Assembly: GCF_002162375.1 (NCBI RefSeq)
Contig: NZ_CP021425.1
Coordinates: forward strand, 3,914,766 to 3,978,765
Length of the DNA: 64,000 nt
Direction: 5' to 3'
From: Oleiphilus messinensis
Lineage (GTDB): Bacteria > Pseudomonadota > Gammaproteobacteria > Pseudomonadales > Oleiphilaceae
Shown here: piece by piece, positions 48,740-63,969 of the stretch
How the letters are laid out: every line of letters starts with the position of its first letter
How positions within the stretch are numbered: position 1 is the first letter of the stretch
Position numbers and translations under genes: made by a program
The notes under the pieces: generated by a model
Databases searched by the model: none
Told to the model about the DNA's origin: nothing
The model's input: the letters and a program-made list of their open reading frames with translations, nothing else

Positions 48740-51700
48740 TCAGAGAATATCCACAGCAGCGGTATACTCTCCCACAGGAATGGTTCCGTTCAATGAATAG
48801 ATTTGCACAAAATAGGTATCATCCCGACTTGCAGCGAAATCCAGCTCGGCAACCGACTCTCCGGAAACAAGCTCATCTGATACCAGTATTTCACCCCGAG
48901 AGTTCAGTACCCGAAAAGCAGGCGCATCTAAATCACTGCTACTCACTTCAAGGTGGTACGAACGTCCTCCCTGGAAGTCAACCGCGAATAAGTCATGATC
49001 ACCAACCATATTCAGACGTGCAGTAATCGATCCGCCCACATCAATGCGAGCATCGGTGCTGAGCGAGTTGACATAATCGTCCGCCATATCGAGAACGGCC
49101 TCCAAAGTATATTCGCCGGTGACCACCGTACCGCCGGCATCATAAACCTCGATATAGAACCCATCCGTAACCAATGCGGATATTTGAATCAATGCCTCCG
49201 TTTCACCGGCTTCCTGAATATCAGAGTCAATCACCGTATTTCCGCTGCTGTCGAATAAGCGCAAGCCCAACATATCGAGCTCTGCACTTTCTACTCGAAG
49301 TGCATACGTATTCCACTGCTCTAGCGTCACACCATACCAGTCCCGGTCGCCCGCGATTTCAATCTGACCATTAACACTACCGTCTATTGCGAGATTCACG
49401 GCCGTTCCCGGTGCGCTCCCGGCATCATCGGTGGTACCACTGAGTGCTGCAGCAACTGTATAGGGGCCAACCGGGAAATCTCCCGAAGCATCAAAAATTT
49501 CAAGATAGTATGTCCCTGTCAGATCAGGGGTATACCCAACCAATGCGTTGCCATCGGCATCGCCATTCAGATCAGCCCCCAACTCCAAAGCTGATCCATC
49601 GAGCAAGCGTAATCCGACTTTATCCAGGTAAGAACTGTTTACGGTAAGGTAATAGGTCGTTCCCTGATCCAAGTCCACAGCCAACCAGTCCGTATCCCCT
49701 ACGGTCTCAATACGACCCGCAGCAGTATCACCAACCAGAACCACACCGCTCGTAGCCGTAGATCCTGCATAGTCATCAGTGGCATCCACAGCACCGAGGG
49801 CTAAATCATAATCTCCCACCGGCGTCGAACCGCCACCATCAACAACTTCAAAATAGAAAGTGCCTGAAGCATTGGCAATAAAAGTCTCTGTCGCGGCAAC
49901 GCCAGTATGAATCAACGTACCCGTCGCATCGTATACATTAATACGACCAGCATCCAATGTAGGACTGGACAGCGCGATATCATAGCTTTCCCACTGACTC
50001 AGGACAGCGGCAAACCAGTCAGCATCCCCTACCCTTTCGAGCCGCCCGGCTGCAGTACCACCCACGGTGATCATCCCGGCTGTACTGGTATCACTGGTAA
50101 AGTCATCATCGGCTGCCCCGGCAGAGAAGCTGATGGCGTAATCCCCTACCGGTATGGATCCCGCTCCAGCATCGACCCCGATATAGAAGGTACCCGTTGC
50201 TTCCGCGGTATAACTCAAACTCTGTGCACCAGGGCTATTGATGAGAGTTCCAGCTGCATCGTAAAGCGTCAGTACAGGGGCATCGAGATCAGAACTGGTT
50301 ATGGCAAAATCATACGTTTCCCATTGCGTCAGCGTTACAGCATACCAATCGACATCTGCAACCACTTCGAGTCTGCCCGACATGGAGCCACCGAGACTGA
50401 TGCTACCTGTTGTCGACGTATCATTGGCATAATCATCGGTCGTATCACCCAAGCCAATACTGAGAATATAGTCACCAACCGATGTCGAACCTGTACCCCC
50501 ATTAACCTGTACATAATGGGCCCCAGGCGTCACTGCAGTATAGCTTCCACTTGATGATGAAAAATCTGTAAGCAATGCACCTGAAGCATCAAACAGGCTG
50601 ATCTCAAGATCATCCAGCGCTGCGCTAGTAGCCTGAATATCATAGGTATCCCATTGTGCCAACGTAATCTGGAACCAGTCATTATCGCCCTCCGTCTCAA
50701 GACGTCCGGTGATGCTGCTTCCCACTGCAACGTTGCCCGTTGTCGTTGTATCTGCCGCATAATCATCGGCAATTGCATCCAGACTGGCAGCCACCGTGTA
50801 ATCACCAACAGGAACCGCCCCACCTCCGTCCAGAATCTCCAGATAATAAGTACCCGACTGGGTAATGCTGTAATCCGCTATTGAAGCACTCGTATTATTG
50901 TTGAGGATCGTCCCGGTACTGTCATAGAGCTTAATGACCGGTGCATCCAGATCTGAACTTGAAACGTTGAAATCATAGCTTCCGGCGGTACTGATCGACA
51001 CTGCAAACCAGTCAGCATCGCTGACCTGCTCCAATCGACCGGTACTCGAGCCACCGAGGCTGACAGTCCCGGATGTGGCGGTAGTAGCGTCATAGTCATC
51101 TGCGACACTGCTATTTTGAAACGAGACCGTGTATAAACCGGTAGTCGCCGTACTGGATCCGGCATCAACACCGACATAATAGGTACCCGAATTTGTTGCA
51201 AGATGTGTCAGATTTGACGCTGCGGGATCGAGCAACAGCGCCCCCGTTTCATCGTAGAGACGAATTTCTGGCGCATTTAAATCCAGACTGCTGACCTGAA
51301 AGTCATAGGTCTCCCACTGGACTACGGATACAGCAAACCAGTCAATATCCCCGGCGATCTCAATTTCACCATTGGTAAAGTTTCCGAGTACGACTTTACC
51401 AGACGTGCCAGTATTGTCACTGAAATCGTCTGAGATTGTGGCATTCTGGAAAGAAAGTGTATAAAGTCCAACAGGAACTGAGCTACTGCCCGCATTGACC
51501 CCGACATAATGAGTGCCGGTACTGGTAGCAGTATATGCAAGCCCTGATGTCCCGGGCGAATTGATAAGCCCGCCCGAGCGATCAAACAGTTCTATCTCCG
51601 CACCATCAAGCTCCAGACTGGAAACCAGAAGATCATAACTTTGCCCTTGGGTCATCGAAACAGCAAACCAATCAACATCACCAACGGATTCCAATTCACC

Positions 51701-52966
51701 ATTTGCAAAGTTACCCAGCGCGACACTACCCGTGGTTACAACGTCCGCGCTAAAATCATCACTTTGATCAAGGGTAACGACAACCTGGTAATCCCCGACC
51801 GGTTGACTACCTGCATTATCACGTACCTGAATATAAAGGGTATCCGCCGTGTTTGAAGTGTAATCGGTCAGCAACCCATTGCTGCCTGAAGCCAGCACAC
51901 TTCCGGCAGCATCCACCAGTTGAAGGTTTGGATCATCCAGATCGTGTCCATAGATTTCAACGTTATAAGTTGACCATTGAGCCGGTGTAAATGAAATCCA
52001 GTCGACATCCCCTACGCGTTCGATTTCACCGTCAGCGACCCCCTCGGAAGCGCCGCCCTCGATTACAATGCTTCCTGCCGTACTCGAGTTCGCAACGTAA
52101 TCATCTCCTGCATACACGGCAGTACTCAGATCATAGGTGCCGGTACTATTCCCATCCAGATCTGAAACAACTATATGATAGGTACCCGAGACGGCAGCAT
52201 TAAAACGCACACTCGAAGCATTAACACCAATTGAAAACGCAACTGCATCACCGGAAGGGTCAAACACTCTGAGCGTTGCTTGATCAAAAAGAGCATTACT
52301 CAGGTCTATGCTGTAGGATTGCCACTGCTCAAGTGTGATTGAAAAAATATCCCGCTCACCGTCCACACTCAGATCACTCGAAATCGCATCTCCCGGACTC
52401 AGAGCGGTCACTCCGGATAGATCCCCTGGCAGCCCAACTGTTGACAGGCCGTTAAGATAACTATGGCTACTGTCTATTCCGGTAGAGACTGTCGCCGGCG
52501 TCGCATCCACTGTGCTGAGTATGCTGACAGCATCATTAATCAGTGTTGCATCATAGACAACAGACACCAAATCAACGTATTGCGTAAAATCATTTGCTAC
52601 GTCGAGTTTGTTCTCCGCCGCACTCAAGTCACTTCCCGTGGCACCGTTTAATACTTCATAAGCCAATTGGGCCGAGGTCAAATCGCCATTGTCCAATAGT
52701 CCGACATAGTAATCGCGACCAGCAGTATCGGGTAATCTCGAAAAAATTTGCTGGTAGATCGCATCAACCATTTCGGTGTGCGTCAGGCTACCATAACGAT
52801 CAACATACTCCTGGGAGGTACCAAAAACATCTATGATGGCAGTCATATCGCCACCCGCTGCCTGAAGCTCGCCCGACCAATACGCGATGCCCGCGGAATC
52901 CCCTGGACGACCGTAATAAGCCACGTACATCAATTGTATTTTGTCTTGATTAGACCGATATGCCAT
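48740..52966 (-). CDS. Large repeat protein: DUF4214-like N terminus plus eleven PPC-like beta repeats
   Basis: A 1408-residue acidic protein with almost no Cys. Residues 1 to about 115 resemble DUF4214 (IQLMYVAYYGRPGDSAGIAYW and a second helical unit YQQIFSRLPDTAGRDYYVGL), which is common at the start of type I-secreted surface proteins of marine bacteria. From about residue 175 come eleven repeats of 105-115 residues of pre-peptidase C-terminal (PPC) type, each with a G-(E/R)-(I/L)-E-x-x-(G/A)-D-x-D-W-(F/Y) core and a G-x-Y-x-(L/I/V)-x-(V/I)-x-(D/N)-x-G end before PVGDYT. There is no signal peptide, so ATP-driven type I secretion is suspected, but no exporter genes are nearby. Confidence 0.85.
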   Translation of the reverse strand: MAYRSNQDKIQLMYVAYYGRPGDSAGIAYWSGELQAAGGDMTAIIDVFGTSQEYVDRYGSLTHTEMVDAIYQQIFSRLPDTAGRDYYVGLLDNGDLTSAQLAYEVLNGATGSDLSAAENKLDVANDFTQYVDLVSVVYDATLINDAVSILSTVDATPATVSTGIDSSHSYLNGLSTVGLPGDLSGVTALSPGDAISSDLSVDGERDIFSITLEQWQSYSIDLSNALFDQATLRVFDPSGDAVAFSIGVNASSVRFNAAVSGTYHIVVSDLDGNSTGTYDLSTAVYAGDDYVANSSTAGSIVIEGGASEGVADGEIERVGDVDWISFTPAQWSTYNVEIYGHDLDDPNLQLVDAAGSVLASGSNGLLTDYTSNTADTLYIQVRDNAGSQPVGDYQVVVTLDQSDDFSADVVTTGSVALGNFANGELESVGDVDWFAVSMTQGQSYDLLVSSLELDGAEIELFDRSGGLINSPGTSGLAYTATSTGTHYVGVNAGSSSVPVGLYTLSFQNATISDDFSDNTGTSGKVVLGNFTNGEIEIAGDIDWFAVSVVQWETYDFQVSSLDLNAPEIRLYDETGALLLDPAASNLTHLATNSGTYYVGVDAGSSTATTGLYTVSFQNSSVADDYDATTATSGTVSLGGSSTGRLEQVSDADWFAVSISTAGSYDFNVSSSDLDAPVIKLYDSTGTILNNNTSASIADYSITQSGTYYLEILDGGGAVPVGDYTVAASLDAIADDYAADTTTTGNVAVGSSITGRLETEGDNDWFQITLAQWDTYDIQATSAALDDLEISLFDASGALLTDFSSSSGSYTAVTPGAHYVQVNGGTGSTSVGDYILSIGLGDTTDDYANDTSTTGSISLGGSMSGRLEVVADVDWYAVTLTQWETYDFAITSSDLDAPVLTLYDAAGTLINSPGAQSLSYTAEATGTFYIGVDAGAGSIPVGDYAISFSAGAADDDFTSDTSTAGMITVGGTAAGRLERVGDADWFAAVLSQWESYDIALSSPTLDAGRINVYDATGTLIHTGVAATETFIANASGTFYFEVVDGGGSTPVGDYDLALGAVDATDDYAGSTATSGVVLVGDTAAGRIETVGDTDWLAVDLDQGTTYYLTVNSSYLDKVGLRLLDGSALELGADLNGDADGNALVGYTPDLTGTYYLEIFDASGDFPVGPYTVAAALSGTTDDAGSAPGTAVNLAIDGSVNGQIEIAGDRDWYGVTLEQWNTYALRVESAELDMLGLRLFDSSGNTVIDSDIQEAGETEALIQISALVTDGFYIEVYDAGGTVVTGEYTLEAVLDMADDYVNSLSTDARIDVGGSITARLNMVGDHDLFAVDFQGGRSYHLEVSSSDLDAPAFRVLNSRGEILVSDELVSGESVAELDFAASRDDTYFVQIYSLNGTIPVGEYTAAVDIL

Positions 52967-53051: not shown

Positions 53052-53954
53052 TTAGAACAGACCAAGGCTTCGATCAATAAACTCAGTCCGCACACGGGGT
53101 ACACCTGCAGCTAATTCAGACAAATTGATTGTCATGGCAGTCGGGATATTGACGTGTACTCCAACGTCAGTGGCCACAATACTGCCAGACGGTGATTGCC
53201 AATCTAGAGCTTGTTTCTGGTAGGAGAAAAAGTAATCACTGGTAAATCCGACCGTACCATCACCATTGTCGACACCCACTTCAAAAGTCTGGATATTGCT
53301 GATCGCAGTACAATTGTTTTCCGACATGCAATCAGTGGTCTCCCCTTCCAGGCCGATATGGGTCGCTCGACTTGAGTTAGCGAGGCCTGCATTGGTTAGC
53401 AGTTGAGCGTCTTTCAATTCCCCTGAACCATCATCGAGCTTGATACCGATGTTCCCCGAGAAACTATCAAAATCACCGGAAACAGTCCCTCTGGCCTGAT
53501 TAAAGCCCATACGGAAACCCACCAGCTCACCGCCGTCCTGTGCGATCTCAAAATAGGGATCGACCCCGGAGAACGGCACAATCTCGTTCTCGGCGTATGT
53601 GTTTCCATCAATTTGAATTTTGTTGCTGTCCCGGGAAATATGCCCCAGGGATACGTTAGAAGCTTGTAGATCAGCACCGGGAGCACCTTCCATAAGGTCA
53701 TACTCACCGAGTACAACTGCATCTACGTTGGTTTGAATATCGGCAGATACGCCGAGTGTGAATCGAGTAAAGTCGGTACCTGTAGCGGTCTCAACAACAT
53801 CAAAAGCAATTGCTGCCTGACCAGTAAATTGCCTGAGCGAATCATCATCAATCGCCTGCAGGTCTGCATAAACAGGCTCGGTAAGACCTACCGAGCACCC
53901 AGCAGCGAGCAGTGCGATCGAGAGATTCCTCCCTGTATCGCGAGTCTTTTTCAT
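53052..53954 (-). CDS. DUF6160/FilA-like exported protein (short member)
   Basis: A 300-residue exported beta-rich protein, the shortest of six paralogs here. The N terminus is a signal peptide (NLSIALLAAGCSVGLTEPVY) before ADLQAIDDDSLRQFTGQA, the family's first conserved box. A central PYFEIAQDGGELVGFRMGF and SGDFDSFSGNIGIKLDD align with the other members, and it ends RTEFIDRSLGLF. It lacks their C-x7-C pair. CAGAGACAC sits 8-16 bases before the ATG. It is 85 bp from the repeat protein gene on the same strand. The family name is from recognition, not from a search. Confidence 0.8.
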   Translation of the reverse strand: MKKTRDTGRNLSIALLAAGCSVGLTEPVYADLQAIDDDSLRQFTGQAAIAFDVVETATGTDFTRFTLGVSADIQTNVDAVVLGEYDLMEGAPGADLQASNVSLGHISRDSNKIQIDGNTYAENEIVPFSGVDPYFEIAQDGGELVGFRMGFNQARGTVSGDFDSFSGNIGIKLDDGSGELKDAQLLTNAGLANSSRATHIGLEGETTDCMSENNCTAISNIQTFEVGVDNGDGTVGFTSDYFFSYQKQALDWQSPSGSIVATDVGVHVNIPTAMTINLSELAAGVPRVRTEFIDRSLGLF

Positions 53955-53992
53955 TTTTAGTGTCTCTGAAACTGAAAGCTATTTTTTGTTGA

Positions 53993-54059: not shown

Positions 54060-54285
54060 TTTATTATTTTTTGTATCTTTTTTGTTATATCGACAATATA
54101 CAGCAGAACGCCCTGGATTTTGTGAACCAAGGCACAGAGACACTGATCACTGATATTATTTAACGTTGAACTATGAAGACAATCACATTTTCCTTATATT
54201 TCAGTAATTTGGTACATTTTAACAATACTTCTGTACCACTTTTTACTGGCACAAAAGTACTTAATCCCCGCCATTCAGATCATGC

Positions 54286-55656
54286 TTAGAATAAACCTAC
54301 CCCGCGATCTATATACTCACGACGAACACCATGAATACCCTCATAAACTTCATGCAGGTTCACCTTTACCGCTCCAGTGGGAAGATTTAAAAACGCGCCA
54401 GAGGTTGCTGATACGAAATTTGACATCGCCGTAGCAGATGAATCAGTGGACCATTCCATGTCTCGCGTCTGAAATGACAGAAATAAGCCCGAAGCGGTAT
54501 CCGTGATGTACTGGCGACCATTGATCTCTTCTACTTTACCAACCGGCATACTCTGGAAATTTGTGAGCGGGAAACACGTTGGAATACCCAACATGACACA
54601 GTCATCTGACTGGATATAAATATTGTAACAAGCGAATAAACCAAACAGGCCACAGCCAGAACTGCTCACCTGTTCGGATCGAGAAGCACTTCCGATCAAG
54701 TTTGCATCGGAAAGTAAGGGCACAACACCTGCAGCCAGAAAGTCAGCACCTTCAATCGTGAACTCGGTACCGTTTTGCATGCCGATATACTGTGAACGCA
54801 CAGGGTCAGCTTCACCATTCTCGTCAACCAAGATAGCCTGTGCGCTGAGTTCACCGTCTGCAACCAGCAGTGGTGTCAGAAGTGTCAGTGCTTCTTCGAG
54901 AATATTTCCATCCTGCTTTTGTCTTGCAGCAGACAGCCCATCGACATCATCACGGATATCAACTTCGACTGCACCAGACAGTGAGAGAATGTTACCTGAC
55001 AGAATCCCTTTCGAATCACCAAAACCAATACGAACACCAATCATTTCATTGGTTGCATCATCAAATGCAAATTCAAGAAAGGGGTCGTTTATCTGAAACG
55101 GTACGACTTCACCTTCACTGTAGTTGATCGGTCGTCCACGGGAATCAAAACCTTTTGCCACCATCGGTACAGATTTATATTTATTGGTGTAATCGTTACT
55201 GTGAATGTATCCAAGCGAAAAATTAGTAGCATGGATATCCGCACCGGTTGACTCTAGGCCTGCTTCTGAGCCATCACATGTGTAGCACGCCTTACCATTC
55301 AAGGACGGATCAGTCGGGTGGTTTTCCCAGCGATGATACTTGCCAAGCTCCATCTCTTCTGCAACCATCATCGTGTCGATTTTCATGCCGAGGTTTACGC
55401 GAGTGTAGCTAATGTCAGATTGTGTCGGATGGCTATTTTGATCGATAGAAATGAATGCCTGTCCGGTGATATCAGACATTTCCTCATCCGAAATTGCTTT
55501 TAACTCACCATAGGAGTCTGCCGGGTATAGCGTTGAGCCAATCAGAAGCAAGCCGCCACTCACAATTGATAGACACTGCTTCCCAAACGAACATTGCCTT
55601 GTTTTAGTTAAATCAGTCCCTTGTTCAAATGCCGCCATTGCCATCGCGTTACCCAT
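54286..55656 (-). CDS. DUF6160/FilA-like exported protein
   Basis: A 456-residue paralog. A roughly 25-residue polar stretch precedes the hydrophobic signal (CLSIVSGGLLLIGSTLYP), then ELKAISDEEMSDITGQAFIS, the first family box. The middle has DPFLEFAFDD, GVRIGFGDSKGILSGNI and a dinucleotide-like LSGAVEVDIRDD; the C-x7-CF pair is DCVMLGIPTCF, and the end is REYIDRGVGLF. It has extra Cys in ACYTCDG near residue 125 shared with the 58021 and 60863 members (ECDGTE). A shortened leader (CAGAGACCACAAC, 55663-55675) lies just upstream. Confidence 0.82.
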   Translation of the reverse strand: MGNAMAMAAFEQGTDLTKTRQCSFGKQCLSIVSGGLLLIGSTLYPADSYGELKAISDEEMSDITGQAFISIDQNSHPTQSDISYTRVNLGMKIDTMMVAEEMELGKYHRWENHPTDPSLNGKACYTCDGSEAGLESTGADIHATNFSLGYIHSNDYTNKYKSVPMVAKGFDSRGRPINYSEGEVVPFQINDPFLEFAFDDATNEMIGVRIGFGDSKGILSGNILSLSGAVEVDIRDDVDGLSAARQKQDGNILEEALTLLTPLLVADGELSAQAILVDENGEADPVRSQYIGMQNGTEFTIEGADFLAAGVVPLLSDANLIGSASRSEQVSSSGCGLFGLFACYNIYIQSDDCVMLGIPTCFPLTNFQSMPVGKVEEINGRQYITDTASGLFLSFQTRDMEWSTDSSATAMSNFVSATSGAFLNLPTGAVKVNLHEVYEGIHGVRREYIDRGVGLF

Positions 55657-55923
55657 ATTCTTGTTGTGGTCTCTGAATTTATGCTGTTAACACAAATACC
55701 TTGCTGAGGACGCAGAACCAAAAACGTTCCGGTACAATCGTATGGCACAAATGTACAAAGAAAGCCGATTTGTCTCCTCCCCCAAATGGGTGAACCTGGG
55801 CGACGCTATTCACAAAGTTGTCTACAAATTGTCACATAATGTTAAATTACGATAATACATGGCCACTTCTCGCACTGAGCGTACTATGACTGAACACCTC
55901 GCCATTTATGAGCCATTGACAAA

Positions 55924-56189: not shown

Positions 56190-56242
56190 CAGAGACACAA
56201 CGTCATCCATTGATTACAAAATAACAACAAGGGCGTTGTATG
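56190..56242 (+). promoter_or_regulatory. Leader stem, copy A
   Basis: CAGAGACACAACGTCATCC (56190-56208) starts the leader. ACAACGTC (56197-56204) can pair over 8 bp with GGCGTTGT (56232-56239), which is immediately followed by the ATG at 56240. The ribosome-binding AAGGG is at the loop/stem border, so pairing would hide it. Confidence 0.65.
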
Positions 56243-57538
56243 ATTCAAGTCAGCAGAGCAACAACTAGAACCAGAAACAGTCAGCAACTGGATCACTACG
56301 AAAATACTTACAGCCACAAAAACGAACATGATTTCAGACGAGTAACTTCACAAACCAATATTGTCCGTTTACTTGTATCTGTAGTGGTATTTGCAATCGG
56401 CACTGGGAAGGCGTTGGCAGACTTAGTACCAATGAATAATGGTGAACTTGCTTCAATATCTGGCCAAGCCATGTTCAGTATTGATCAATACTCACATCCG
56501 GATCCAACGGAAAATACCAACTACACACGCATCAATCTTGGACTGGATGTCGAGACCGTACTGAATGCCGACGTACTTGAGCTCGGCAGGTATGAGCGAG
56601 CCGGTGAAAAACCAGGGACTTCCGATGTACTCATCAACAACTTTGGTTTGGGCAATATTTATACATCGTCGTACTACGACAACAATCCCAAATCGCCGCG
56701 CCCGCTTAAAGAAAATGGTGAAGAGTATGTTGACGGTGAGTTAGTCCCCTTCACGCTGCATGACCCCTTTATAGAATTCTCCTTTAACGAAGCCACCGGA
56801 CAACCTACCGGAGTGCGTATTGGATTTGGTGATTCCAAAGGTTTTCTGTCCGGCAATATTGAAACCCTTACAGGAAATATCAATGTTGATATTCTCGACC
56901 GAGGAGAAGGCCTTACGGAAGCCTCCTCCAATGGTAATCTGTTTGATCAGGTGGTTATCGCACTCGCTCCTTATCTGGCAGGAGGAAGCCCGATCTACAC
57001 CAAAGCCGAGCTGGTCGATATGGAAGGTGAACTTGACCCGGTACGAGCGGAGTATGCCGGTGTACCAGATGGGGAAAAATTTGTCATTGAAGATGTGAGT
57101 GGCGCAACACGTTGGCTGATTAATACAGTTTCACCTTTGAACAGTAGCACTATTGAAAATCCGAACTGTTCTTTTTTCTGGTGTCCTGCTGGAGACATTA
57201 TCATCACAGTCGAAGACTGTTTGGTTCTCGGGATCACGGCTTGTTTCGATTTAGGTGACTTCAATAGTCTGCCTATCGGGAAAATAGAGGAAATTAATGG
57301 CAAACGCTACATTACCGACGCCGTACCCGGAGTATTTATTTCATTGCAATCGCAAGACGTTGACTGGTTAATCGATACAGCTAACCTGTCTCCAAACCCT
57401 GAAGATTTCTTGCGCGCAACACAGGGCGCATTCCTGAATATCCCGAACAGTGCCGTTGAATTCAATTTGGCCGAGGCATTGAATGGGATCGACCGGGTTC
57501 GGACAGAATACATCGACCGGGGTGTGGGGCTGTTCTAG
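56240..57538 (+). CDS. DUF6160/FilA-like exported protein
   Basis: A 432-residue paralog, most similar to the 62206 product. It begins with about 42 polar residues before a hydrophobic segment (VRLLVSVVVFAIGTGKALA), giving an unusually long n-region of the signal peptide; no in-frame internal start is available. The family boxes are MNNGELASISGQAMFSIDQ, the DPFIEFSFNE and GVRIGFGDSKGFLSG core, C-x7-C in DCLVLGITACF and the end RTEYIDRGVGLF. It starts directly after the conserved leader stem. Confidence 0.85.
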   Translation: MIQVSRATTRTRNSQQLDHYENTYSHKNEHDFRRVTSQTNIVRLLVSVVVFAIGTGKALADLVPMNNGELASISGQAMFSIDQYSHPDPTENTNYTRINLGLDVETVLNADVLELGRYERAGEKPGTSDVLINNFGLGNIYTSSYYDNNPKSPRPLKENGEEYVDGELVPFTLHDPFIEFSFNEATGQPTGVRIGFGDSKGFLSGNIETLTGNINVDILDRGEGLTEASSNGNLFDQVVIALAPYLAGGSPIYTKAELVDMEGELDPVRAEYAGVPDGEKFVIEDVSGATRWLINTVSPLNSSTIENPNCSFFWCPAGDIIITVEDCLVLGITACFDLGDFNSLPIGKIEEINGKRYITDAVPGVFISLQSQDVDWLIDTANLSPNPEDFLRATQGAFLNIPNSAVEFNLAEALNGIDRVRTEYIDRGVGLF

Positions 57539-57694
57539 AGGAGTTCTCTACAAATTTCATGCAACATTGAAAACAGATGGAAAATAACTGGATTGATCCA
57601 CTGACTTTCAGTCCAGATCTGGTTGAGCCAGTTTGTCATTACGAAAATCTCAAATTGCGCTCATCAGACACCAAACCTATGTACCATTACAAAA

Positions 57695-57734
57695 TGTAGA
57701 ATAGCATCACATTTTAGAACGAAAGTACAAATTG
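57695..57734 (+). promoter_or_regulatory. Conserved upstream element, copy B
   Basis: TGTAGAATAGCATCACATTT, then TAGAACGAAAGTACAAATTG, about 300 bp upstream of the 58021 start. The second half is nearly the same as in copy C at 60551. Within the same spacer (57539-58020) a perfect palindrome ATTCAATATTGAAT is at 57856-57869. Confidence 0.55.
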
Positions 57735-57971
57735 ATCCATTATTTTCGTTTTTGATTTTAAACCTGAAATTCTTTTCGCTTAAACAAACTTTAACGCCTT
57801 TTCAGTTCGATTTAGAACATCCTTACAAAAAACTGTGATTCATTTCCGTCGTGATATTCAATATTGAATGACGACAACCTGTTGTAACAACACTTCACAA
57901 TCCCTCTCCCCATTGATTACAAATTAGCTCTTGATTACTCTGAAGTCACTCGATTCACACAACTATAAAAA

Positions 57972-58023
57972 CAGAGACACAGCGTCATCCGTTAATTTCA
58001 AAAATAACAAGGGACGTTGTATG
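57972..58023 (+). promoter_or_regulatory. Leader stem, copy B
   Basis: CAGAGACACAGCGTCATCC begins the leader. ACAGCGTC (57979-57986) pairs with GACGTTGT (58013-58020), the ATG following directly at 58021. Relative to copy A both arms have changed, yet 8 pairs remain, one of them G-U. Confidence 0.65.
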
Positions 58024-58903
58024 CACACCTGCAAACAATTGAAAACTATCTTAATCTCTATCTTTGCTTTACTCATAGGGACAATTTGTCACGCCGAGCT
58101 AAAACCAATTTCAGACGATGAAATGTCCAATGTAACCGGTCAAGCTTTCTTCTCCGTGGATAGTTACGACTATGATGGAACCGATTTCATGCGCGTGAAT
58201 CTAGGCATTGAAATCGAAACATTGCTTGACATTGGAGAGCTGGAAGTGGGTCGCTACCACCGATGGGAGAATGGAGATGCGTGTCTGGAATGCGATGGCA
58301 CCGAACCCGGTTTGGAGCGCCACGCAGCGGATCTTATGCTGGAAAACTTTTCCTTGGGACACATCGATAAAGACACTGGAGAGATCGATCCATTTTATTT
58401 AAACGAACCATTCCTCGAATTCGCGTTAGATGATCAAGGCACACCTATTGGAGTTCGTTTAGGCTTTGCGAACGCCAAAGGCTGGCTATCGGGTAACATT
58501 CAAAGTTTAACGGGAAACATCGATATCGCGATTCAGGATACCGCTTACGGTTTATCACAAATGGCTCCCGATTGTTCTGCCGGTGCATATGAATGCTTTT
58601 TGGGATTATTACTCAGCATATTGGGCCCTCCAATTCTCCAAGGCTCCCCCCTGGAAGCCGAAGCAAACCTCATCAGCCCAGAGGGTGAATTAGACCCTGT
58701 GCGCGCGAATATGGTTGGCCTGGAGAATGGGAAAGAATTCCGTGCAGATGGCACAGGTGAAATTAACTTTTTCGAGCGAGGCCTGTTGGATCTGATGATC
58801 GCGCTTACGCCGTCACGCTATAACGCACGGAGGGAGGGCGATGTTGTTATTTTTGAAGCCGCCAACTGTGACATACTAAGCGTTCCTGTTTGTTTTGATT
58901 TTA

Positions 58904-60057
58904 GGAAGGCCTGATTAATCAGCCATATTTATAGACGAAGCCCACTTTCGGCAAATCTCGTCAAAATCAGCGGGTCTTCTTCCTGATTTGCCACCTTATG
59001 TGGCCGTTACGCGCCTACAAGGCGCAACTTGCCTGTTAAACTGGCTGCAAATGCCTTTTGGCAAGCACAATATTCGCCAACGCACATTTTGTAAATACCG
59101 CATGTGCGTTCTTATCCAACCCTTTGTATCTCACTTTTTTGTAACCAAACTGGCCTTTCAGCACGCCAAATACATGCTCAACACGAGACCGTATTTTCGA
59201 TTTGAATCGGTTTGACGATCTTTCCTGATCTGAAAGCGGCCTGTTGCGATACGCCTTTCTCTGAGTGAAATCTTTGGCATTGGGAGCTCGCTCTTTAAGC
59301 ACTTCCTTTAGGCCAGCGTAAGCAGAATCCCCCCATAATCGAGTTTCATCTCCGTGAAGTAAATCTTCCAGCACCTGAGAGTCATGAACATTTGCAGGTG
59401 TCACGACAACCGAATGAATCAGCTTGGTTTTGCTGTCCACACCAATGTGTGCTTTCATGCCAAAATACCACTGGTTGCCTTTCCTAGTCTGCTTCATTTC
59501 CGGGTCGCGTTGTTTGTCTTTGTTCTTGGTTGAGCTTGGTGCGTTGATAATGCTGGCGTCAACTATCGTGCCTCGTGATACCTTTAAACCATTCTCCTCC
59601 AAATAAACATTCACTAAACGAAACAGCTCACCACCAAGATTATGCCTCTCCATCAAATGGCGAAACTTACAGATAGTCGTTTCATCTGGCACAGGTTCCT
59701 TGCCCAAATCTATCCCAACAAAAAGACGCATTGCTCTTGAGTCATAGAGTGCTTCTTCTGCACCGGGATCCGACAACTCAAACCAATGCTGGAGGAAATG
59801 AATACGAAGCATACGTTCCAAACCGACTGGCTTGCGTCCTGCGCCTTTCGGAGGTTTTGGATAATAGGGTTTTATTGCGTCACTCAATTCCTTCCACGGA
59901 ATGATTTGATTCATTTCATCAAGGAAAATCTCTTTTCGGGTTTTCTTTCGGTAAACCTCAAACCCTGTCGCTTCCAGACTCTGTTGTTTCATGTGCAAAC
60001 CAGCTTATTGTTGTTTGGGGTATGGTATATCATTTTTGTTAATTAATCAGAGATGCC
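58904..60057 (-). mobile_element. IS5-family insertion sequence, 1154 bp
   Basis: The element is bounded by 19-bp imperfect inverted repeats: left GGAAGGCCTGATTAATCAG, right (reverse complement) GGCATCTCTGATTAATTAA, 13 of 19 matching without gaps. It is flanked by a 4-bp direct repeat TTTA (58900-58903 and 60058-60061). It carries one intact transposase gene and resembles IS5 in size, ends (GGAAGG) and target duplication length. Confidence 0.93.
59036..59992 (-). CDS. IS5-family transposase
   Basis: A 318-residue DDE transposase of the IS5 group. The catalytic triad is suggested by Asp in GTIVDASIINAPSS, Asp in LWGDSAYAGL and Glu in SRVEHVFGVLKGQFG with the conserved Y-(2)-R-(3)-E-like C-terminal signature; DPEMKQTRKGNQWYFGMKAH is the typical central region. 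The start is ATG at 59992; a TTG two codons upstream is possible. It is intact, so the element may be active. It is transcribed opposite to the interrupted gene. Confidence 0.94.
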   Translation of the reverse strand: MKQQSLEATGFEVYRKKTRKEIFLDEMNQIIPWKELSDAIKPYYPKPPKGAGRKPVGLERMLRIHFLQHWFELSDPGAEEALYDSRAMRLFVGIDLGKEPVPDETTICKFRHLMERHNLGGELFRLVNVYLEENGLKVSRGTIVDASIINAPSSTKNKDKQRDPEMKQTRKGNQWYFGMKAHIGVDSKTKLIHSVVVTPANVHDSQVLEDLLHGDETRLWGDSAYAGLKEVLKERAPNAKDFTQRKAYRNRPLSDQERSSNRFKSKIRSRVEHVFGVLKGQFGYKKVRYKGLDKNAHAVFTKCALANIVLAKRHLQPV

Positions 60058-60550
60058 TTTACTAACTTTGGCAGCTTCGAGATTGGTCGGGGAACTGAAA
60101 ATGGCACTCCAGGTCTCTTCCTCTCTGTACAGACCGCAGATACCATAAAGTGGGCCCAAACCTTTGAAAACAAACCAGGTAGTGCAGTTCAAACATTCCA
60201 GGAAACCGGCTTTGGAACATTTTTCAATATCCCGAATGATGGTGTAGCCGTAACACTACAGGAGGCTATGAACGGAATCGAACGGAAACAAACTCATTTT
60301 ATCAATCGTGGTATGGGACTGTTCTGACGATTCAGTTTCAATTAAGCCTATTAAGTTTCGAGGCGGTAAGCGATTGATCCACATCAACCATCCGAAGCAT
60401 TACCCTGACTATTTATTAGAGAGTTATGGTAACGGATCGATTGCTTACCGACTTGTCAAAAACATAAAGCTCCCAAGCAGCATTTGTCATTTGTCATTTG
60501 TAACAACACTGAATCCGAAACCATAGAAATGGTCAAAAAATAGACCACAA

Positions 60551-60581
60551 TCACATTTTGGAACGAAAGTACATTTTGTTC
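60551..60581 (+). promoter_or_regulatory. Conserved upstream element, copy C
   Basis: TCACATTTTGGAACGAAAGT continuing ACATTTTGTTC, about 300 bp upstream of the 60863 start. Of the compared copies this and copy B are closest. The spacer 60328-60862 has no gene. Confidence 0.55.
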
Positions 60582-60812
60582 TTTTTCTTTCGAATTTGAT
60601 TGTCACGCGATGCTCATCACCTATTCCGAACACATCTATTACAACACCCTTCTTTTGAGAACATGCCGCCAAATTACTGTGATTTAGTTCCGCAACAATA
60701 TTCCAAAAAGAACTCGCGCAACACTTCGATACACTTTATCACTAATTGATAACACGCCAACTCTTGATTAATCTGAGACAGCTAGGTTCAGAACAATATA
60801 ATAAATAATACT

Positions 60813-60865
60813 CAGAGACACGACGTCATCCGTTCAATTCTAAAAATAAGATGGGGCGTTGTATG
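60813..60865 (+). promoter_or_regulatory. Leader stem, copy C
   Basis: CAGAGACACGACGTCATCC starts the leader. ACGACGTC (60820-60827) pairs with GGCGTTGT (60855-60862) over 8 positions including two G-U pairs, directly followed by the ATG at 60863. Confidence 0.65.
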
Positions 60866-62014
60866 AACAATATCGGCAAGCGGCTGCACTTTGGCATAAT
60901 CTCGGTGATCGCGTACCTGACCGCGTCACTCTGCCAGGCAGAACTAAAACCAATTTCGGACACAGAAATGTCCGACATAACGGGTCAGGCTTTTTTCTCA
61001 GTGGATAACTATGCCTATGAGGGTACGGAGTTCATGCGTCTTAATCTTGGACTTGAGATTGAGACGCTACTAGATATAGGTGAACTTGAGGTGGGCCGCT
61101 ACCATCGCTGGGAGAACGGTGACCCCTGTCTAGAGTGTGACGGTACTGAAGCCGGCTTGGAACGCCATCCTGCCGACCTCATGCTGAAGAATTTCTCACT
61201 CGGCCATATTAACGAAGATACGGATGAGATAGATCCATTTTACCTAAAAGATCCATTTCTTGAGTTCGCATTAGACGATCAGGGTACGCCCATTGGTGTA
61301 CGTCTCGGATTTGCCAACGCGAAGGGGTGGCTATCTGGCAACATCACAAGTCTTACCGGTAATATTGATATCGCCATCAAAGATACGGCTTATGGCCTCT
61401 CACAGATGGCGCCAGATTGCTCGGCAGGAGCGTATGAATGTTTTCTCGGGCTGCTTTTGAAAGTCTTGGGCCCGCCCATATTACAAGGCTCCCCCCTTGA
61501 GGCTGAAGCAAATCTGGTCAATCAGGAAGGCGACCTGGATCCAGTACGCGCCAATATGGTTGGCATGGAGGATGGCAAAGAGTTTCGAGCCGACGGCACT
61601 GGAGAGATTAACTTCTTTGAACGCGCCCTACTGGATTTAATGATCGCACTGACACCTTCACGCTACAATGCTCGACGAGAAGGCGATATTGTGATTTTTG
61701 AATCTGCCAACTGCGATATATTGAGCGTTCCCGTATGCTTTGACCTTTCCAACTTTGGTAGCTTCGAAATCGGTAGAGGCACCGAAACAGGAACGCCAGG
61801 CTTATTTCTCTCAGTACAGACCGCAGATACGATAAAATGGGCGCAAACCTTTGAAGAGAACCCAGGCAGCGCAGTTCAAACATTTCAAGAAACGGGATTT
61901 GGCACGTTTTTTAATATTCCCAACGATGGTGTTGCCGTCACATTGCAGGAGGCAATGAACGGCATAGATCGTAAACAAACCCACTTTATTAATCGAGGTA
62001 TGGGTCTGTTCTAA
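60863..62014 (+). CDS. DUF6160/FilA-like exported protein
   Basis: A 383-residue intact paralog of the broken gene at 58021. The signal peptide is MNNIGKRLHFGIISVIAYLT to SLCQA; ELKPISDTEMSDITGQAFFS follows, then YHRWENGDPCLECDGTE, PFLEFALDD with GVRLGFANAKGWLSG, LTGNIDIAIKD, C-x7-C in NCDILSVPVCF and the end HFINRGMGLF. An ATG at 60851 is in frame, but the conserved leader in the other loci puts the start at 60863. The two genes keep nearly the same protein despite many silent differences. Confidence 0.87.
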   Translation: MNNIGKRLHFGIISVIAYLTASLCQAELKPISDTEMSDITGQAFFSVDNYAYEGTEFMRLNLGLEIETLLDIGELEVGRYHRWENGDPCLECDGTEAGLERHPADLMLKNFSLGHINEDTDEIDPFYLKDPFLEFALDDQGTPIGVRLGFANAKGWLSGNITSLTGNIDIAIKDTAYGLSQMAPDCSAGAYECFLGLLLKVLGPPILQGSPLEAEANLVNQEGDLDPVRANMVGMEDGKEFRADGTGEINFFERALLDLMIALTPSRYNARREGDIVIFESANCDILSVPVCFDLSNFGSFEIGRGTETGTPGLFLSVQTADTIKWAQTFEENPGSAVQTFQETGFGTFFNIPNDGVAVTLQEAMNGIDRKQTHFINRGMGLF

Positions 62015-62205
62015 AAACCGCTCATAGGTAAAAATAACACATTGAGTGCGTGAAGGTTTCCTGGTTCACACAGATTTCGCGCACTCTCTTGGATGTTTTA
62101 ATCTTATCCTTCCAATATAGCCGCACGCACTCATTGGCTTGCTTGTTCACATCATCCGATAAGAGAGAGCGGATTTTGAATCTTGTCCATCTGACCGGTA
62201 AAACG

Positions 62206-63390
62206 CTAAAACAATCCCACGCCTCTATCGATATATTCCGTACGAACTCGACTGATTCCATTTAATGCTTCGTTCAAATTGAATTGAACTGCGCTATTCG
62301 GCACATTGAGGAATGCGCCTTGGGTCGCACGTAAGAAATCTTCAGGATTTGGAGCCAGCTTGGCGGTATCGACCAGCCAATCGACATCCTGTGATTGAAG
62401 CGAAATGAACACACCAGGAACGGAATCTGTTAAATAGCGTTTACCATCAATCTCTTCAATCTGTCCAACAGGTAAACTCTTGAAGTTCCCCAAATCGAAG
62501 CAGGCAGTTATCCCAAGAACCAGGCAATCTTCTACAGTAATCTCGATATCACCCGCCGGACACCAGAAAAACGAGCAATTAGGGTTATTGATGTTGCTAC
62601 TATTCAGCGGTGAAACCGTGTTAATCAACCAACGTGTCGCACCACTCACATCTTCAATCACAAATTTTTCACCGTCAGGCACCCCAGCGTACTCCGCCCT
62701 GATCGGATCCAGATTACCATTCATATCCACCAACTGCGCCTCAGTTCGAATCGGACTTCCCCCAGCAAGGTAAGGTGCGAGCGCAATTACAATTTGATCA
62801 AACAGGTTTCCGTTGGAGGACGCTTCCTGTAGCCCTTGACCTCTATCTAGAATTTCAACATTAATGTTCCCGGTAAGGGTCTGGATATCCCCGGACAGAA
62901 ACCCTTTCGAGTCGCCAAATCCAATACGTACGCCGGTCGGTTGCCCAGTCGTTTCATCAAATGAGAACTCGATAAACGGATCGTGCATTGTAAAGGGAAC
63001 GAGCTCTCCTTCTTGATACTGGGAGCCATCTGCTTTCAATGGTCTGGGAGACTGGGGATTATTTTGATAATAGGCATCGCTGTATATACCGCCCAAACCA
63101 AAATTATTAATCAATACATCAGAAGAGCCTGCTTTTTCACCTGCGCGCTCGTATCGCCCCAACTCAAGAACATCCGCGTTGAGTACAGTCTCAACATCGA
63201 GACCTAAGTTGATCCGGGTGTAAGACGTATTTTTTAAAGGATCGGGATGGTCGTACTGGTCAATACTGAACATGGCTTTACCCGATACAGACGCAAGCTC
63301 GGAATCATCCATAGCCTTCAATTCCGCGTGTAGACCGGGCACGCTCAAGCAAACCGCAATGACTGAGGAAACTAGAACCTTACGCATCAT
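62206..63390 (-). CDS. DUF6160/FilA-like exported protein
   Basis: A 394-residue paralog close to the 56240 product. A short signal peptide (MMRKVLVSSVIAVCLSVPGL then HAELK) precedes ELKAMDDSELASVSGKAMFS; note GKA replaces the usual GQA. The DPFIEFSFDE and GVRIGFGDSKGFLSG core, DCLVLGITACF and the end RTEYIDRGVGLF match the family. AGGGGG lies 9 bases before the ATG. Its start overlaps the stop of a 51-codon upstream frame (ACATGATG), and the family leader lies ahead of that frame instead of ahead of this gene. Confidence 0.87.
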   Translation of the reverse strand: MMRKVLVSSVIAVCLSVPGLHAELKAMDDSELASVSGKAMFSIDQYDHPDPLKNTSYTRINLGLDVETVLNADVLELGRYERAGEKAGSSDVLINNFGLGGIYSDAYYQNNPQSPRPLKADGSQYQEGELVPFTMHDPFIEFSFDETTGQPTGVRIGFGDSKGFLSGDIQTLTGNINVEILDRGQGLQEASSNGNLFDQIVIALAPYLAGGSPIRTEAQLVDMNGNLDPIRAEYAGVPDGEKFVIEDVSGATRWLINTVSPLNSSNINNPNCSFFWCPAGDIEITVEDCLVLGITACFDLGNFKSLPVGQIEEIDGKRYLTDSVPGVFISLQSQDVDWLVDTAKLAPNPEDFLRATQGAFLNVPNSAVQFNLNEALNGISRVRTEYIDRGVGLF

Positions 63391-63542
63391 GTTATCGAAC
63401 CCCCTACCACAGAGCTCAAAACTGGGTTAATTGTCCGTTTTCTATTGAACATTTGACCTTCATAAACTGGATTGCAGGCAAAACGAATACAATCGCCAAA
63501 TGCAGCATCCATTGAATACAATTGCCGGTTGATCGTGGTCAT
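63387..63542 (-). CDS. Upstream leader frame overlapping the 62206-63390 gene
   Basis: A 51-codon frame starts at the ATG (63542) that follows the conserved leader stem and ends with a TGA inside the ATGATG start of the DUF6160-like gene. The peptide begins MTTINRQLYSMDAAFGDCIR and ends SSVVGGSIT; it has no recognisable domain. Position, overlap and leader suggest translational coupling or control, or it may be a remnant of an N-terminal extension as seen in the 56240 protein. Translation is not shown. Confidence 0.5.
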   Translation of the reverse strand: MTTINRQLYSMDAAFGDCIRFACNPVYEGQMFNRKRTINPVLSSVVGGSIT

Positions 63543-63591
63543 ACAACGCCTTTTTTATTTGAGTAATACGAGGATTGACGTCGTGTCTCTG
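63540..63591 (-). promoter_or_regulatory. Leader stem, copy D
   Basis: On the minus strand the leader starts CAGAGACACGACGTC (63591 downward). Arm ACGACGTC (63584-63577) pairs with GGCGTTGT (63550-63543), the ATG of the 51-codon frame following at 63542. It has two G-U pairs, as in copy C. Confidence 0.62.
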
Positions 63592-63808: not shown

Positions 63809-63845
63809 AAAAAAACCCCAGTGGTGTTTACCACTGGGGTTTTTA
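63809..63845 (-). terminator. rRNA operon terminator
   Basis: AAAAACCCCAGTGG / CCACTGGGGTTTTT with a TGTTTA loop, directly after the 5S gene and with T-runs for either direction. Confidence 0.93.
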
Positions 63846-63850
63846 ATTAG

Positions 63851-63969
63851 GAGCCTGACAATGACCTACTCTCACATGGGGAGACCCCACACTACCATCG
63901 GCGCTGGACGGTTTCACTACTGAGTTCGGTATGGGATCAGGTGGTTCACGTCCGCTATGATCGTCAGAC
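63851..63969 (-). rRNA. rrf: 5S ribosomal RNA
   Basis: On the minus strand the sequence begins GTCTGACGATCATAGC and contains GAACCACCTGATCCC, CGAACTCAGTAGTGAAAC, CGCCGATGGTAGTGTGGGGT and ends GTAGGTCATTGTCAGGCTC. The ends pair over about 9 positions. It is very close to the Pseudomonas-type 5S. The 23S and 16S genes lie beyond the right edge. Exact ends are estimated to within 1-2 nt. Confidence 0.95.

Follow-up and report, generated by a model that had tools for sequence, protein, structure and literature searches.

The 64,000-nucleotide (nt) stretch of DNA analysed here, which we call the window, comes from Oleiphilus messinensis (RefSeq assembly GCF_002162375.1, contig NZ_CP021425.1, forward-strand positions 3,914,766 to 3,978,765) and contains a cluster of DUF6160-like genes beside a 5S rRNA gene. 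At four places in this cluster a short conserved leader directly precedes an ATG (Table 1). Leaders 1 to 3 stand before DUF6160-like genes, and the ATG of leader 4 (63542) opens a 51-codon open reading frame (ORF) rather than a large DUF6160-like gene. The order of 5S rRNA, terminator, leader 4 and DUF6160-like gene is the same as in related genomes, and it is this leader, its counterparts in those genomes, and its possible role in translational control by Hfq and Crc that concern us here.

A first-pass annotation of the window had described four loci (56190, 57972, 60813 and minus-strand 63591) that share CAGAGACAC, followed by an 8-nt arm whose partner abuts an ATG. All four were present as described. 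The sequence CAGAGACAC occurs six times in the window against 0.42 expected, a count that none of 100 shuffles reached, and the pattern CAGAGACACN{30,45}GTTGTATG, that is, CAGAGACAC and GTTGTATG separated by 30-45 nt, matched the 6,379,281-base genome four times, exactly at leaders 1-4; the reversed control pattern gave no match in the whole genome. The arms do pair, and RNA folding recovered the 8-bp stem abutting the ATG in all four leaders, with folding z-scores that were weak (-1.02, -1.34, -0.91 and -0.05). The tolerance of G-U pairs among these copies had been taken to point to RNA, which the four copies do not support: every difference between the arms is a purine change facing U, no pair is changed on both sides, and the four leaders alone therefore provide no compensatory evidence. 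By themselves the window copies are suggestive only of an RNA element. Two paralogues, at 53954 and 55656, had been said to keep only CAGAGAC, which is correct for 55656, whereas 53954 keeps the whole of CAGAGACAC; an additional copy of CAGAGACAC lies on the plus strand at 54135. A scan for promoter consensus sequences was at chance (15 found, 20.6 expected), so that no transcription start can be named. By eye, TTGATT, TTGATT and TTGATA are present 5' of leaders 1-3, followed after 17 bases by TAACCT, TACTCT and TAATCT, respectively, with TATAA-like hexamers nearer still.

Table 1. Leaders, genes and other features of the window discussed in the text.
Feature	Position	Strand	Details
Short relative of leader	53955..53968	-	whole CAGAGACAC 53968-53960 just 5' of ATG 53954; A-rich; no such stem in fold
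Short relative of leader	55657..55675	-	CAGAGAC 55675-55669, then AACAAGAA and ATG; no such stem in fold
Leader 1	56190..56239	+	CAGAGACAC 56190-56198; arm ACAACGTC 56197-56204; A-rich repeat AATAACAACAA 56220-56230; arm GGCGTTGT 56232-56239; ATG 56240
14-nt identity to part of Hfq/Crc-bound amiE6ARN RNA of P. aeruginosa	56218..56231	+	AAAATAACAACAAG
DUF6160-like gene behind leader 1	56240..57538	+	432 amino acids; N-terminal extension preceding apparent signal peptide
Leader 2	57972..58020	+	CAGAGACAC 57972-57980; arm ACAGCGTC 57979-57986; AAAAATAACAA 58000-58010; arm GACGTTGT 58013-58020; ATG 58021
DUF6160-like gene behind leader 2	58021..58914	+	interrupted by transposase gene 59036-59998 (-); interruption read from sequence
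Leader 3	60813..60862	+	CAGAGACAC 60813-60821; arm ACGACGTC 60820-60827; AAAAATAA 60842-60849; arm GGCGTTGT 60855-60862; ATG 60863
DUF6160-like gene behind leader 3	60863..62014	+	383 amino acids
DUF6160-like gene	62206..63390	-	394 amino acids; relative of rRNA-adjacent Marinobacter gene; 53-57% identity to 17 aligned relatives' proteins
Small ORF opened by leader 4	63387..63542	-	51 codons; overlaps start of DUF6160-like gene 62206-63390 by 4 bases
Leader 4	63543..63591	-	CAGAGACAC 63591-63583; arm ACGACGTC 63584-63577; AATAAAAA 63559-63552; arm GGCGTTGT 63550-63543; ATG 63542
Terminator-like hairpin	63811..63844	-	between 5S rRNA gene 63853-63968 (-) and leader 4

Of 151 genomes from the same family, 115 encode relatives of the 62206-63390 protein (E up to 1e-6), the near full-length ones in other genomes being 48-59% identical to it. 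We fetched 89 loci (L083-L171), among which are paralogues and loci truncated by a contig end; a leader of our set was present at 58 and, by eye, at four more (L116, L127, L164, L171), and 27 are without such a leader. The relatives' set comprises 55 distinct leaders, which come from genera g12, g15 and g2 except for a doubtful one from g9, L152 (TAGAGACAC). The latter was excluded from the repeat, conservation and ANGGA statistics and from the relatives' accessibility means; statistics quoted for 58 leaders refer to 54 relatives' leaders and the four window copies. The six loci inspected for their surroundings (L085, L091, L098, L202-L204) all have 23S and 5S rRNA genes beside the DUF6160-like gene, in the order 23S, 5S, first DUF6160-like gene in L202-L204. 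Other than rRNA and tRNA, no Rfam 15 family reached its gathering threshold in the stretches scanned, and the literature searched on DUF6160, on CrcZ in Marinobacter and on Crc/Hfq in Marinobacter held no description of the leader.

The leader of the relatives is longer than the window form. Besides CAGAGACRCUCAUC it has an inner hairpin, and a stem covering the ribosome-binding site and/or the AUG closes the structure. It was sorted by regular expressions into types A, B, C and others (31, 8, 7 and 9 leaders, respectively). In type A, for which all 11 named records are Marinobacter, CUCAU pairs with the start codon region AUGAG and, in most leaders, AGUCA pairs with UGACU; in type B GAGACAC pairs with GUGUCU, and UCAUC with the ribosome-binding sequence GGUGA; in type C GACA and CUCAU pair with UGUC and AUGAG, 5' of the AUG. 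The inner region of the predicted fold has at least four pairs in all 54 relatives' leaders, a loose test.

That the leader is folded as RNA in the relatives, as these models predict, is well supported by covariation. We gave 51 loci to an alignment in which 46 were aligned; because it was fitted to the model R1, built from the relatives, it leans towards the structure of that model. Within it 91.9% of the cells pair, ten of the 16 pairs are changed on both sides (shuffled mean 5.1), and there are 42 two-sided cells against a shuffled mean of 9.8, a number as high being found in none of 500 shuffles; when the partner was slid by 1-3 columns, pairing fell to 23-42%. The two-sided changes are carried by the inner hairpin and the middle helix, five of five pairs in each. 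RNAalifold, run on a MAFFT alignment of 31 leaders, found only the invariant start-codon helix, because the shorter hairpins were misaligned, a difficulty that the model-based alignment solved. A second hairpin upstream, of which the first-pass annotation made no mention, is formed by CTGGC, an A-rich loop of variable length, and GCCAG, and was detected by regular expression in 37 of the 54 relatives. In its alignment, which holds 34 of 40 extracted segments (13 leaders with no obvious hairpin or with a short or long variant, as well as duplicates, having been left out beforehand), 99.4% of the cells pair and three of five pairs show two-sided change, most clearly as CGGAT/ATCCG in two genomes. 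When arms were swapped between types, own partners gave the better pairing in the comparison of the window with type A and where a 5' arm of type B was set against a 3' arm of type A, but any 5' arm paired well with the 3' arms of types B and C, because the 5' segment is nearly invariant. Shuffling the 5' arm gave only modest z-scores, from -0.9 to -2.8 by group.

The predicted fold bears directly on the start region. Folding z averaged -2.25 in the 54 relatives, with 45 of them below -1, and the AUG or the ribosome-binding region was predicted to be mostly paired (probability of being unpaired below 0.3) in 85% of the 54 leaders compared with 40% of 40 control starts. For 30 of the 31 type-A leaders the predicted probability that the AUG is unpaired was at most 0.05, against a mean of 0.48 in the control starts. 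Together with the covariation, these figures bear out the earlier suggestion of an RNA element that ends at or covers the start codon. For the window copies, in which folding had been expected to block translation, the stem is predicted to cover part of the ribosome-binding region (unpaired 0.11-0.57) and the AUG to be mostly unpaired (0.78-0.85). A self-inhibitory stem across the start of translation is predicted in the relatives and is weaker in the window copies. Any ANGGA occurs in only 14 of the 58 leaders, and no conserved core of the CsrA/RsmA type was found among them.

The statistically strongest single feature of the leaders is an (AAN)n repeat of the Hfq type, which likewise went unremarked in the first-pass annotation. 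The sequence AANAANAA is present in 40 of the 58 leaders (36 of 54 relatives and all four window copies) against 2.4 expected, the largest count among 200 shuffles being 8, and the four-repeat form is present in 24 of 58 against 0.2 expected. Where it occurs, AANAANAA is mostly predicted to be unpaired: the probability is 0.72-1.00 in 35 of the 36 relatives' leaders and 0.49 in the remaining one, and the window copies give 0.53-0.81; the mean for the rest of the leader is 0.21-0.50. In the 45 nt upstream of CAGAGAC, enrichment of AANAANAA is only slight: 24 of 58 have it there, where shuffles averaged 13.9 and reached 21 at most. Within the O. messinensis genome, AANAANAA lies within 70 nt of 12 of 24 DUF6160 starts against 4.7 expected, the starts having been chosen by script and a few being wrong, and of 3 of 27 control ORFs against 1.9. 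The 14 nt at 56218-56231, AAAATAACAACAAG, are identical to part of amiE6ARN, an RNA printed as AAAAAUAACAACAAGAGG in a methods passage of PMC6422490 and with a different 3' end in two other passages; this pattern matched the window once when up to one mismatch was allowed, against 0.03 expected. As a separate observation, the upstream regions of three loci that have no CAGAGAC (L130, L140 and L143) hold AAN repeats, which are predicted to lie in a hairpin loop in L130, partly so in L140, and not in L143.

The proteins that could recognize such a repeat are encoded by O. messinensis. Hfq is present, as is a 258-residue exonuclease-III-like orthologue of Crc, whose best match in the PDB is P. 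aeruginosa Crc (E 4.3e-73). Its gene sits between a phosphoribosyltransferase (pyrE-like) gene and an RNase PH gene, and in Pseudomonas the neighbourhood is pyrE-crc-rph. Relatives of the Crc orthologue were found in 159 of 163 family genomes. Matches to CrcZ (RF01675) were obtained in 54 of 61 family genomes, all below the Rfam cut-off and many of full length; sub-threshold matches were also given by 3 of 14 control genomes. All six CrcZ-like loci that we inspected (L242-L247) are flanked on one side by a gene whose end is cbrB-like and on the other by a pcnB-like gene (in L242 a sigma-54 activator and a poly(A) polymerase by Pfam), and each holds four or five AANAANAA sites; given this synteny and these sites, we take them as real relatives of CrcZ. 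CrcZ-like RNAs below the Rfam cut-off thus occur in Marinobacter and related genera (L242-L247, L259-L278).

We consider it somewhat probable that the structured 5' leader places DUF6160-like exported-protein genes under translational control by Hfq, most likely together with Crc, the stem hiding the start region and the repeat binding Hfq. The conserved 5' segment would pair with the bases just 5' of the start codon, and in many relatives with the start codon too, thereby hiding the ribosome-binding site and/or the AUG, and the loop would display the unpaired (AAN)n repeat, to which Hfq would bind by its distal face. On good carbon sources the leader would be occupied by Hfq-Crc and so be closed to the ribosome; when a CrcZ-type decoy RNA rises, Hfq would be titrated away and translation allowed. 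The binding of Hfq-Crc, the direction of the control and its nutrient signal are what we infer from these sequences, and the window copies may work as the relatives' leaders do.

A number of observations weigh against this proposal. In type A the predicted fold should block translation by itself, so that activation would suit it no less well than repression. Eighteen of the 58 leaders are without a perfect AANAANAA, having imperfect repeats or none. Among eight residues of P. aeruginosa Crc that the eLife paper names in RNA or dimer contacts, K155, W161, R162 and R230 are not kept in the orthologue and R140, R141, E193 and R196 are, by a hand count on the PDB-match alignment. The O. messinensis genome gave no CrcZ match at E 0.1 with RF01675, no search of its cbrB-pcnB interval having been made. 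As to the fold, the start-codon helix (helix 1) shows no two-sided change, which is expected because the AUG is fixed, and in the 17 close type-A leaders alone covariation does not rise above shuffles. Conservation averages 1.56 bits in the 5' segment and 0.83 in its partner, a comparison biased by selection on the 5' segment, and the segment is conserved even where it is predicted to be unpaired; plain pairing does not explain this excess. The leader is also patchy in its distribution. With model R1 it was detected once each in 56 of 163 family genomes, which belong to 2 of 16 genera; the window copies, which are without the inner hairpin, escape the model (0 matches in their own genome). The 13-mer CAGAGACRCTCAT occurs in 69 of 151 genomes, where 21 of the 30 loci inspected precede a DUF6160-like gene and nine do not. 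At one locus (L183, in genome G081) we noted a leader-like copy (CAGAGACGCTCATC ... GTGAGATGTCATC) with no recognised DUF6160 gene behind it.

The main rival, which we regard as unlikely, is activation in the manner of rpoS, in which the stem is a self-inhibitory lock: Hfq would settle on the AAN repeat and bring in a small RNA, whose pairing with the 5' arm CAGAGACRCUCAUC would release the start codon. It would account for the firm predicted lock on the type-A start codon and for the excess conservation of the 5' arm, and in the leader-bearing genera examined (g2, g12 and g15, apart from the g15 stretch L268, which could not be read) the CrcZ-like RNAs do hold GAGUGUUUU, a segment that can pair with GAGACACUC. 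However, GAGUG is also found in the CrcZ of g10, g11, g13 and g16, which have no leader in our set, and g4, g5 and g8 have GAUU. Moreover, the leader-CrcZ pairing is not significant: in the five pairs tested, between 21 and 52 of 300 shuffles did as well. In a 13-nt search of both strands, which did not extend to shorter complements, 65 of the 69 genomes that had a match had just one, indicating that an exact 13-nt complement is not conserved at a second locus. A still more speculative arrangement, and a distinctly improbable one, would make the fold and the Hfq-Crc landing site a single device. The fold would keep the AUG closed and expose the A-rich loop, with the nutrient-controlled CrcZ acting both as Hfq decoy and, through GAGUGUUUU, by pairing with the near-invariant GAGACACUC arm to open the start codon. 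CrcZ is known as a decoy, and to act by pairing with a target would be new for this RNA.

Strong stems, an upstream hairpin in many relatives and a location just behind the rRNA operon could all belong to a structure mainly for mRNA stability or ribosome standby, in which 5' hairpins protect a highly expressed transcript and Hfq has no specific role; we think this quite unlikely, as the AAN repeat is kept unpaired at a frequency far above chance and stability needs no sequestration of the start codon. The temperature- or ligand-responsive switch raised in the first-pass annotation appears very improbable. A stem over the ribosome-binding site and AUG is typical of thermometers, but the pairing of the AUG is predicted to be nearly constant from 10 to 45 °C in the eight leaders folded, being unpaired at 0.00-0.02 throughout (98-100% paired) in the type-A leaders L085 and L091 and changing by at most 0.12 in the six others; as for a ligand, no conserved pocket is apparent beyond the A-rich loop, and there is no Rfam match in the stretches scanned. 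Finally, the window genes are paralogues and their four leaders have no two-sided changes, as would be seen were the leader a duplicated promoter or operator with a stem formed by chance. The covariation in the relatives contradicts such a DNA-level origin, which has in our view scarcely any chance of being correct; the variable length of the upstream loop also argues against a DNA operator and would favour a transcription start farther upstream, and the leader precedes the start codon of a DUF6160-like gene in the majority of loci inspected (21 of 30).

With respect to the genes themselves, only one of the six in the window (54286-55656, 27.1 bits) reaches the Pfam DUF6160 cut-off of 27 bits, the other five scoring 14.2-26.3, and in the whole genome 24 matches to DUF6160 were obtained with an E-value limit of 0.1. 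The protein encoded at 60863-62014 has no close relatives in the genome contigs searched, and that encoded at 62206-63390 has no match among plasmids and a poor predicted structure (mean predicted local distance difference test score, pLDDT, 54). The overlap of the small ORF of leader 4 with the latter gene makes translational coupling possible, and at the position matching this ORF the paralogue at 56240 is extended in frame at its N-terminus. Beyond the transposase gene lies an apparent 3' part of the leader-2 gene (window 58021-60330). The cluster is adjoined by a 1408-residue protein (48740-52966, minus strand) with a DDY/DDF-type motif every ~110 residues, and elsewhere in the genome another DUF6160 gene (L037, C1:113619-116750) is preceded by a very long stretch that is rich in A and in which AAN units recur. 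In L202 the set consists of four members of 402, 361, 183 and 804 residues, two of them above the DUF6160 cut-off (33.8 bits for the first, no match for the second, 22 for the third and 53 for the fourth), and 3' of it are a biotin-protein-ligase (birA-like) gene and a type III pantothenate kinase gene (Pfam).

Hfq/Crc control has been studied mostly in Pseudomonas. If our interpretation is correct, a structured, covarying leader would be added to this mode of control, and the genes behind the leaders would be controlled by an RNA mechanism that senses nutrients. This would be an initial clue to the conditions under which genes of DUF6160, a Pfam family of unknown function barely mentioned in the literature searched, are expressed. 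The Crc/CbrB/CrcZ circuit would also extend to Marinobacter and relatives, despite CbrAB having been called exclusive to Pseudomonads in the abstract of PMC6296734.

Among known systems, the RNA thermometers such as ROSE and fourU share with the leader a stem that sequesters the ribosome-binding site and AUG, but the leader is predicted to be closed from 10 to 45 °C and has in addition a conserved A-rich loop and an unpaired 5' segment. The rpoS leader of Escherichia coli has a self-inhibitory stem that is opened by Hfq and small RNAs (PMC6762075). Both leaders have such a stem at the start of translation, together with an Hfq site of the AAN type. The present leader is shorter and carries its AAN repeat in the loop rather than upstream of the stem, and searches for an exact 13-nt complement and for CrcZ pairing identified no partner small RNA for it. 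CrcZ (RF01675) also has (AAN)n repeats, and a CrcZ-like RNA occurs in the same bacterial family, but the leader is a cis element of mRNAs, whereas CrcZ is generally known as a trans-acting decoy RNA. Closest are the Hfq/Crc repression sites of amiE, rbsB and estA in Pseudomonas aeruginosa, which, according to PMC6422490 and PMC9890229, have ARN/AAN repeats near the translation start and hairpins beside them; leader 1 and amiE6ARN have 14 nt in common. The leader differs from these sites in that its repeat lies in the loops of covarying hairpins and the ribosome-binding site and start codon are closed off by a long stem; in the relatives, moreover, it is essentially one locus per genome, beside an rRNA operon and with a near-invariant CAGAGAC. 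As in Hfq/Crc targets, most of the leaders (40 of 58) have at least three repeats near the start, the repeat where present is predicted to be single-stranded, and both Hfq and a Crc orthologue are encoded in the genome.

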